Positions 2,140-4,786 of a DNA stretch of 44,270 nt are shown here, one piece after another. The notes under the pieces were generated by a model. That model worked only from the letters and a program-made list of their open reading frames with translations, did no database searches and was not told the origin of the DNA. Numbering within the stretch: the stretch's first letter is position 1; the number at the start of each line of letters is the position of its first letter. The position numbers were made by a program, and so were the translations under genes. This DNA comes from Clostridiales bacterium (lineage in GTDB: Bacteria; Bacillota; Clostridia; Oscillospirales; JAAYOS01): positions 1-44,270 of the forward strand of contig JAAYOS010000074.1 of the NCBI GenBank assembly GCA_012520195.1, written 5' to 3'.

Positions 2140-2245
2140 TATGTGCTGTCGCTAAACCCAGCAAGAGCTGTTCAGGCTCCAATATTACAGAATTTTAATA
2201 ATACTTCCCTAATATTACAGTTACATTACAAGTAGACCAAAAGCA

Positions 2246-2274
2246 TTGACAGAGGCAACCAATTCAAATATACT
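2246..2274 (+). promoter_or_regulatory. Strong SigA promoter of the S-layer gene
   Basis: Consensus TTGACA (2246-2251), 17-base spacer and TATACT (2269-2274). An AT-rich tract upstream contains the decamer AATATTACAG twice and could act as an UP element. The predicted transcript start near 2281 gives an unusually long leader of about 125 bases, as expected for a very highly expressed surface protein. Confidence 0.75.
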
Positions 2275-2287
2275 TCACGTGTGGTAA

Positions 2288-2381
2288 ATCCTTCATTAGG
2301 TACTAACGCCTTGCAGGTCGGCTGAAGGATATCCGGGTCTGCAAGCGAGTACATATAACAAAACTATCCCGGGAAAACGGG
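2288..2381 (+). promoter_or_regulatory. Structured S-layer mRNA leader with interleaved hairpin arms
   Basis: ATCCTTCA (2288-2295) pairs with TGAAGGAT (2323-2330). CTTGCAGGTC (2310-2319) pairs with GGGTCTGCAAG bases 2336-2345 over 10 positions, two of them G-U. The arms alternate A-B-A'-B', so they form either an H-type pseudoknot or two mutually exclusive hairpins. A third small hairpin, TCCCG/CGGGA (2367-2382), precedes the Shine-Dalgarno site. The pairing is seen in the sequence; a role in mRNA stability or translation is inferred. Confidence 0.55.
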
Positions 2382-2407
2382 AAACAAAATTTTAAGGAGG
2401 ACGACAA

Positions 2408-4786
2408 ATGAGATCCTTTAAGAAAGCTCTAACCATGGCGTTAGTCTTTGTTATGGCGATCGGTCTTCTGACTGCAGGAGCTCTGGACTTCACAGATGCT
2501 AATGACATTCAGTACAAAGAAGCCGTTGAAGTCATGACAGGAATTGGCGCAATCAATGGTTATACCGATGGCACATTCAGGCCAGATGGCCTTCTGACAC
2601 GTGCAGAAGCCGCAAAACTCGTTACTTACGCAATCCTCACTGAGCGTGTAGCTCAGTACCTCCCAAGTGGAAGCTCAAGCTTCACTGACGTGGCTACAAA
2701 CCATTGGGCTGTACCGTACATTGAGTACTGTGTATCCAAGGGCATCATCAACGGCCGCGGCAATGGCATTTTCGATCCTAATGGTAACGTAACCGCTTTT
2801 GAGATTGCTAAAATGCTTCTCACAGCAGCAGGCTACGGCCAGAACGGCGAATATGTAGGAGCATCCTGGAGCCTGAACGTTGTTGCTGATGCTATTGACA
2901 ACGACATTTTCCTCGGATCAAAGGCAACAAACTACGGAGCACCTGCAACCCGCGAAGAGGCAGCTCTCTATGTATTCAACGGTCTAACAAAAGTTAACCG
3001 TGTTGAGTATAGCAAAGACACAGATTCCTATAAAGACCTTACTAGCGATAAGACCATTGGTGAGTGGAAGTATGGTCTGAATGACGTAGCATCCACTGTT
3101 AACGGTGTCTCTGGTTATACATGGATGAGCAAGAGTGGTCCTGTTTCCAGCTTCATTGTAGCCGAGAACGTACTTGGAACAAGCATGAACGGAACAGCTA
3201 TTAGCGAACTGACCAAAAAGTACGGTGCATCCTTTATCGCTGAAGAAGATGACACAGTAGACTATTTCTACAATGGCTTTGGCGCAACTGCATACGCTGT
3301 AAATACTGACTATGCTAAAGACGACCTCATTGTTGAAGATGGTAAAGTATATGAAGTAACTGCAGATATTGCTAAAGCTGCTAACACGAAGTTTAGCGAT
3401 GTTGCAACCACATTGATTGTAGACCCGGCAACAAAGGGCGTAATTGTAAACCTAGTTGATGGAAACCGTAACGGCAAAGCCGACAAGATTGCAATCACTA
3501 ACAAGGCTGTTGCAAAACTTTCTGCTGATCCCGTTGTTAAGAACGACACTGTAGACATTGCCGGTATTACTCCAACAGCTGTTGATGTTAAGTATGTACC
3601 AGGTTATGATACACTCGCTAAAGACGATGTTGTACTCTGGTATCTAGACGCATCAGGCGTGTACAACATTGAGAAAGCTGAAACAACTACAGGAACTGTA
3701 ACTGCAATCAGAGGTTCAAAGTATTACATTGACGGTGTTGTTTTCGAGCTGTCAGGTCTGACCGGCGCAACAGGAACCCCAGCACTCGGCAATGCAACCG
3801 ATACTTATTTCCTTGACAATGGTGGTTACATTGTGTTCAAGAGTGGCCCGACTGCTCCTCAGGTAGACGACACATATGCACTGGTTATAGATTATAACTA
3901 CGAACCCGCTGACACTTGGGCAGGAGTAGCTGCAAGCTCCAAGGCAAAGCTGCTTCTCGAAGACGGAACTGTAGGCATTTATGACCTTGTAACTAACTCA
4001 GGCAAAGTAGCTAATTATGCTCTTGCTAAGGGTTCTCTCATCAAGTATGTCATGGATGATGATGATGTAATCACAAGTGTTGTTAAGGAAGACAATGTAA
4101 ACATAATCGGTCTAACTGCAGCAACTACAACTAAGGGTGGAAATACAACTACTATTGGCGGTACTACCTACTATAACAGCGCCTCCACTGTATTCTTCTT
4201 CTATGAGGATAATGCAGGTGTAATTGAGAACTATGGAGTCACTGTTGGCTACAAGACCGTCCAAGCAGTAACTGGTACAACAGATGGAGCTTATGTTGCG
4301 GATGCAAATAAAGTACTTAAGGTAATGTCAGTTAACGTTAAGGCTGAAGCTGCGGTGAGTGACAAAGTTTACGCTTACATCACAAACGCCACACCGCTTG
4401 AGACTATAAAAGACGGAAAGACTGTCTATTCCTACGATGCATTCATAAACGGTGAAGCAGTAACCGTAACAGAGGGAACTCAAACTGTAGCGGCAGCTGG
4501 TCTCTATGAGGCAGTTGAAGCTAAGGGTCTCTACACACTAACATCAAAATCATTTACTGTGTCAGGTAAGGATGTAACAATTGCAGAGAGCACCTACTTT
4601 GTTGCTGATTCAACATTGTACAACATTACCAACACAACTCAGGCCTACAAGGCCACAATCACTGGCGGCGCAGTTACTAAGCTCGAAGCAGCAGATTTTG
4701 CACTCGTAGCAGGCAAGACTCTGAAAGCTGACATACTTGCAGATGGTAGCAGCAACGCATTATTCGTAGTATTCTGGTACGAATAA
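2408..4786 (+). CDS. Major S-layer protein candidate, three SLH domains
   Basis: A 792-residue exported protein, probably the main S-layer subunit or an abundant cell-wall-anchored protein. It opens with MRSFKKALTMALVFVMAIG, a signal peptide ending near GALDF. Three SLH repeats follow (about residues 25-70, 85-130 and 135-185), with typical cores such as INGYTDGTFRPDGLLTRAEA. The rest is Thr/Val/Asp-rich, cysteine-poor beta-type sequence typical of S-layer ectodomains, with one acidic DxNxxGxxD loop at 3458-3484. Start: AAGGAGG lies 8 bases before ATG 2408. The near-consensus promoter (2246-2274), long structured leader and strong terminator (4852-4886) all point to high expression as a single gene. 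It shares its layout with the upstream 586-residue protein. No enzymatic domain is recognised. Confidence 0.9.
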   Translation: MRSFKKALTMALVFVMAIGLLTAGALDFTDANDIQYKEAVEVMTGIGAINGYTDGTFRPDGLLTRAEAAKLVTYAILTERVAQYLPSGSSSFTDVATNHWAVPYIEYCVSKGIINGRGNGIFDPNGNVTAFEIAKMLLTAAGYGQNGEYVGASWSLNVVADAIDNDIFLGSKATNYGAPATREEAALYVFNGLTKVNRVEYSKDTDSYKDLTSDKTIGEWKYGLNDVASTVNGVSGYTWMSKSGPVSSFIVAENVLGTSMNGTAISELTKKYGASFIAEEDDTVDYFYNGFGATAYAVNTDYAKDDLIVEDGKVYEVTADIAKAANTKFSDVATTLIVDPATKGVIVNLVDGNRNGKADKIAITNKAVAKLSADPVVKNDTVDIAGITPTAVDVKYVPGYDTLAKDDVVLWYLDASGVYNIEKAETTTGTVTAIRGSKYYIDGVVFELSGLTGATGTPALGNATDTYFLDNGGYIVFKSGPTAPQVDDTYALVIDYNYEPADTWAGVAASSKAKLLLEDGTVGIYDLVTNSGKVANYALAKGSLIKYVMDDDDVITSVVKEDNVNIIGLTAATTTKGGNTTTIGGTTYYNSASTVFFFYEDNAGVIENYGVTVGYKTVQAVTGTTDGAYVADANKVLKVMSVNVKAEAAVSDKVYAYITNATPLETIKDGKTVYSYDAFINGEAVTVTEGTQTVAAAGLYEAVEAKGLYTLTSKSFTVSGKDVTIAESTYFVADSTLYNITNTTQAYKATITGGAVTKLEAADFALVAGKTLKADILADGSSNALFVVFWYE

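Follow-up and report, generated by a model that had tools for sequence, protein, structure and literature searches.

A conserved hairpin, probably regulatory, in the leader of an S-layer gene subfamily of Clostridiales

Few cellular proteins are as abundant as S-layer proteins, and the way in which their synthesis is matched to the demand of the cell surface is poorly understood. The leader of the S-layer gene in the stretch analyzed here (the window, 44,270 nucleotides of a Clostridiales bacterium) had been read, from its letters alone, as holding two interleaved stems that could form an H-type pseudoknot or exclude each other. Is this arrangement the conserved feature of the leader, or is it another structure, and how might that structure act on the S-layer mRNA?

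Promoter, leader and gene

The S-layer gene (2408..4786; this gene and the parts of its promoter and leader given below are on the + strand) encodes a protein of 792 aa with two SLH domain stretches and is preceded by the Shine-Dalgarno sequence AAGGAGG (2394..2400). The promoter, TTGACA-17-TATACT (2246..2274), agrees with the consensus at 11 of 12 positions, as its earlier description as near-consensus implies. From the promoter spacing, the transcript start is expected near 2281, which places the whole of the conserved element described below within the leader.

The pattern search located TTACA-N6-TTACA-N15-TTGAC at 2215..2250, with the TTACA boxes 11 bp apart and followed by the -35 box. 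The same spacing recurs before many S-layer-like genes of the order, and the architecture, which S-layer genes share across many families of the order, is a likely binding site of a common S-layer activator. Within the same family and order, the promoter of many S-layer genes is preceded by the two TTACA boxes, and the leader has a short GC hairpin near its 5' end, followed by an A-rich stretch and GGAGG. The leader in the window has all these parts, including a short GC hairpin (UCCCG/CGGGA, 2367..2382) between the conserved element and the ribosome-binding site, the position of which agrees with that in other S-layer leaders; it has, in addition, ~75 nt that separate the transcript start from this hairpin.

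The TTACA-TTACA-TTGAC promoter is also present before a different conserved gene, in the family f26 (L158, L159, L161-L163, L180-L182); the f26 proteins show LCMGCM/LCLGCM...CGYS...PYLPSYLAPGT near their start. Directly upstream of the S-layer gene, the window contains a gene for an SLH-domain protein (376-2139), and a related SLH gene is found at the end of a different contig (G000:C202, L059). The window's genome comprises 2.45 Mb in 209 contigs and is 96% complete.

Interleaved stems and the extended hairpin

Stem A/A' pairs ATCCTTCA (2288..2295) with TGAAGGAT (2323..2330) through 8 Watson-Crick pairs, and stem B/B' pairs CTTGCAGGTC (2310..2319) with GGTCTGCAAG (2336..2345) through 10 pairs, two of them G-U. 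The A-B-A'-B' order, the lengths of the stems and the loops of 14, 3 and 5 bases are all as the sequence-only reading had given them. The low chance of such an arrangement, also claimed there, is borne out in the sense of uncommon, not unique: when the 130-nt leader was shuffled with its dinucleotides kept, interleaved stems of at least 8 and at least 10 pairs (G-U allowed) turned up in 5 of 3000 sequences, and stems of that size are found in 17 of 1360 of the window's own 130-nt tiles, taken on both strands.

The predicted fold of the leader has an energy of -35.8 kcal/mol (z of -3.14 with respect to shuffles, i.e. more stable) and places stem B inside a longer hairpin (2300-2352), as its upper and middle part. 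The pair probability of A-A' is 0.0 at all eight positions. By nested folding, a method that cannot score a pseudoknot, A/A' without B reaches -23.6 kcal/mol, ~12 kcal/mol worse than the hairpin.

The hairpin is closed at its base by the helix P1, in which GUAC (2300..2303) pairs with a second GUAC (2349-2352) in all 10 sequences that carry the element. An asymmetric internal loop separates P1 from the 12-bp stem P2, formed by the 5' arm CGC(C)UUGCAGGUC (2307..2319, one C bulged, including the B strand of stem B) and the 3' arm GGUCUGCAAGCG (2336..2347, including B'). The apical loop GGCUGAAGGAUAUCCG (2320..2335) includes A' and contains the palindromic octamer GGAUAUCC (2327..2334). The 3' arm of P1 continues into a conserved tail, the two together reading GUACAUA (2349..2355). 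Neither the octamer nor GUACAUA varies among the 10 sequences; the loop octamer is frozen, whereas the letters of the stem drift.

The alignment A5 (10 sequences from 7 genomes, fitted to the covariance model R2, on which fit the pair counts depend) has 96.9% of its 160 cells paired, and in six stem pairs both partners change, whereas shuffles average 1.3 such pairs and none of 500 is as high. Controls slid along the sequence gave 0-2 both-side pairs and 26-38% of cells paired. The eight rows of genus g168 alone show weak covariation (2 both-side pairs, 36/500 shuffles as high), and much of the signal stems from the window and G395. RNAalifold returned the same hairpin with no structure supplied. 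Six of the 16 pairs include G-U cells, which fits an RNA stem rather than a DNA palindrome. The homologous leaders thus keep stem B, extended and with compensatory changes.

The pairing of stem A is not kept. A/A' is present in one of the 10 element-bearing leaders, that of the window, and the other nine have no equivalent; individual leaders can pair over as many as 9 nt in other ways, either with G-U pairs or at different places. Loss of the pairing in homologous leaders had been named beforehand as counting against the proposed arrangement, and for stem A this is what is found. In addition, only 4 nt separate A from the conserved base helix, so that A, judging by geometry, would not reach the loop once the whole hairpin is formed, and there seems to be no room for A/A' beside the fully extended hairpin. 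As a conserved feature, the pseudoknot or switch is already contradicted by the comparison of leaders. A structured leader with a probable regulatory role stands from the earlier proposal; the H-type pseudoknot does not, nor does a switch in which A/A' and B/B' exclude each other, and despite eight perfect pairs interleaved with ten, matched in so few shuffles, we regard either as very improbable. Stem A of the window would then be a lineage-specific extra pairing, or chance, and not the core of the device.

Several other pairings and reading frames in the leader were considered and rejected as shared features. The probability that A pairs with the ribosome-binding site in the window is ~0.55, and a similar segment is present in G400; over the 10 leaders, the stretch before the hairpin (22 nt, or 18 nt in the window) nevertheless has a complementarity to the ribosome-binding site close to that of shuffles (1065/2000 as high for Watson-Crick pairs, 208/2000 with G-U), which speaks against an anti-Shine-Dalgarno as a shared feature. 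Pairing of the apical loop with a GGCC of the downstream hairpin is plausible by eye in several g168 leaders; the GGCC is self-complementary, and the pairing is lost, also as judged by eye, in the window and both G389 copies. Lastly, a frame opened by an ATG within the stem continues through GGA TAT CC in 8 of 10 sequences (by eye), and the window has no such ATG; of the two G389 frames, one ends ahead of the octamer and the other shortly past it, and no ribosome-binding site was seen for this upstream ORF. In G394b and G395 the frame of the hairpin ATG continues into the S-layer gene.

Distribution of the element

By plain DNA similarity, the extra leader piece has no copy elsewhere in its own genome and none in 59 relatives, and only chance-sized matches were obtained in 394 genomes of the order. 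The promoter pattern TTACA-N6-TTACA-N13-17-TTGNC, searched in the same 394 genomes, matched in 124 of them. The leaders were read at 60 of the matching places, chosen mostly for the commonest spacing, of which ~30 precede S-layer-like N-termini (by eye). One of these 60 leaders, from genome G389 of another family, has the element: TTAGGTACT, a differing stem, AAGGATATCCG, then GTACATA.

A two-sequence model (R1), run with stricter filters on the 394 genomes, gave E below 1e-5 only at the window and at two places in G389, and nothing else convincing. Among 198 relatives of G389, R1 matched five genomes at E <= 0.01, all of genus g168. The model R2, built from eight g168 leaders with the window left out, matches the window at 2297-2360 with 44.9 bits (E of 2.6e-10 in the window and 1.5e-8 in the whole genome). 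In 40 chosen genomes, R2 gave strong matches in seven (G000, G389, G394, G395, G396, G399 and G400); the other matches (E 0.006 to 4.5) are regarded as antisense mirror images or chance. Among 86 loci, only L146, the G389 copy, was matched by R2, on both strands. The range of the element is narrow, as it is found in 6 of 11 g168 genomes and in 1 of 10 genomes of the window's family. In viral contigs a loose pattern matched 98 stretches, and among the matches listed with GTAC behind, none resembles the element; a tighter pattern matched no stretch. No ortholog was found by synteny, the G001 contig with the neighboring DUF4015 gene having no S-layer gene there.

All 10 copies of the element stand before S-layer genes. 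The gene in the window and both G389 genes encode SLH domains, and the other copies precede genes of the same MKSLNRTLSL type. In a comparison in which several sequences were cut at locus ends, the S-layer protein of the window scored 196-313 bits with five g168 S-layer sequences; among six relatives of its own family and order, the highest score was that of G003, 186 bits. Three g168 proteins fall below G003, namely the two of G394 (184 and 167 bits) and that of G395 (173 bits). The higher g168 than own-family scores suggest that the element and the gene subfamily travel together.

Possible function and comparison with known leaders

The hairpin is real and conserved, and probably regulatory: its presence before related surface-coat genes in other bacteria makes it a probable control element. 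A frozen loop on a drifting stem fits a recognition loop held up by its stem, and we take the element as a cis-acting hairpin that would be read by a trans-acting factor. In the leader, the order is S-layer promoter (missing in one copy), hairpin and ribosome-binding site. The hairpin would act in cis, its apical loop would be what the trans-acting factor recognizes, and this factor, most probably a protein that binds RNA, would adjust translation or decay of the abundant S-layer mRNA. We lean, with confidence only a little above even, to a conserved leader hairpin of an S-layer gene subfamily, the loop of which is read by a putative factor tuning translation or decay. More tentatively, and at somewhat less than even confidence, it would represent an S-layer regulatory RNA family not previously described. 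A dedicated factor would bind GGAUAUCC, or the octamer would kiss that of another leader, and S-layer synthesis would in this way be set at the level of the mRNA; hairpin and S-layer gene would pass together from one bacterial family to another. A literature search, chiefly outside subscription journals, found one paper on an S-layer RNA motif (PMC6429828) and none on this hairpin, and S-layer terms had no match in the text of PMC8040213. A short conserved hairpin with an invariant loop could serve as bait in pulling down the factor that recognizes it, and lends itself to reporter assays.

The factor could be CsrA, binding the GGA of the loop and that of the Shine-Dalgarno sequence and repressing translation, since GGA is invariant at both places in 10 of 10 leaders and four of the seven genomes with the element, the window's among them, encode CsrA. 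The presence of CsrA in 3 of 5 non-bearing g168 genomes speaks against this, as does the lack of a match in the bearing draft genomes G399 (97% complete), G400 (95%) and G395 (87%), and GGA alone leaves the invariant AUAUCC unexplained; as judged from the genomes and leaders, CsrA is a possible partner of the hairpin, and we assign this explanation a small probability. In a loop-loop dimer, the palindromic GGAUAUCC would let two leaders kiss and couple translation or stability to the abundance of the mRNA. The octamer is self-complementary (computed duplex energy of -10.8 kcal/mol) and invariant in 10 of 10 sequences, but for want of variation in it covariation cannot test kissing; we know of no loop-loop dimer in a bacterial mRNA and consider this quite improbable. 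An invariant loop could also contact a ligand, the hairpin being all or part of the aptamer of a metabolite- or ion-sensing riboswitch, possibly of the published SLH motif, whose gene context is the same (PMC6429828). A single simple hairpin, without a shared switch to the ribosome-binding site and found in two genera only, makes this unlikely: pairing of the ribosome-binding site varies among the leaders in the folding comparison, which revealed no expression platform shared across those bearing the element. In Rfam 15, no family reached its gathering score on the element (window and four g168 loci), and there was no match among 4227 families, a set that possibly does not include the SLH motif.

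The element could instead act as DNA, as a site at which recombination switches S-layer genes. G389 has two divergent S-layer genes, both with the element, on either side of a tyrosine recombinase gene; their leaders form inverted repeats and only one promoter is present. In G399 an ORF with an integrase domain lies just upstream of the element-bearing gene. Against this, no recombinase was seen (by eye and with a crude motif scan) beside the element in the stretches examined of G394 (2 copies), G395, G396 (2) and G400, nor was one noticed among the listed ORFs of the window, and the window's genome has no second copy. A second inverted copy with a recombinase nearby is found only in G389. Many stem variants are also G-U pairs, which keep an RNA stem and break a DNA inverted repeat, and recombination seems to us the least probable of the explanations considered.

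Some arrangements of S-layer genes in these genomes deserve separate mention. In G389 (C35), the two divergent genes around the recombinase gene (L292, 4700-6500), with a terminator ahead of the copy that has no promoter, look like an invertible S-layer switch. The phage-integrase-domain ORF of G399 (C94) occupies 3-1379 of L297, directly upstream of the S-layer gene. Opposed S-layer genes that share leader and start, some without a recognizable promoter, are present in G005, G009 and G006 (L050, L053, L054, L055), and G042:C2:1172623-1208998 carries SLH ORFs clustered on the two strands, several of which have no start codon at a shared GGTTCTCGCGCTG. The opposed genes and the G042 cluster are possible silent cassettes.

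In respect to known leaders, stabilizing stem-loops exist at the 5' end of S-layer and other abundant mRNAs. The element resembles them as part of a structured S-layer leader, and many S-layer leaders of the order carry a 5' GC hairpin; unlike them, the hairpin has a loop of invariant sequence, and a fixed loop sequence would not be needed for a block that is purely mechanical. The leader of the flagellin gene (hag) of Bacillus subtilis is repressed by CsrA, which binds one GGA in the loop of a hairpin and another at the ribosome-binding site. The leaders described here share with this type the GGA in an upstream hairpin loop and the second GGA in the ribosome-binding site, and differ in the invariant octamer beyond GGA and in that CsrA was not found in 3 of 7 bearers. 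The SLH motif is reported as a riboswitch candidate (Stav et al. 2019, PMC6429828); its 80 examples come from Synergistaceae, Clostridia and Negativicutes, and about 60% of them lie upstream of SLH-domain genes. Like that motif, the element is a structured leader RNA before SLH-domain genes, and Clostridia lie within the motif's range as given there; unlike it, with its three groups and 80 examples (PMC6429828), the element is found in two genera of one order. Compared by gene context and range rather than by consensus, the two may be one and the same RNA or two different ones.
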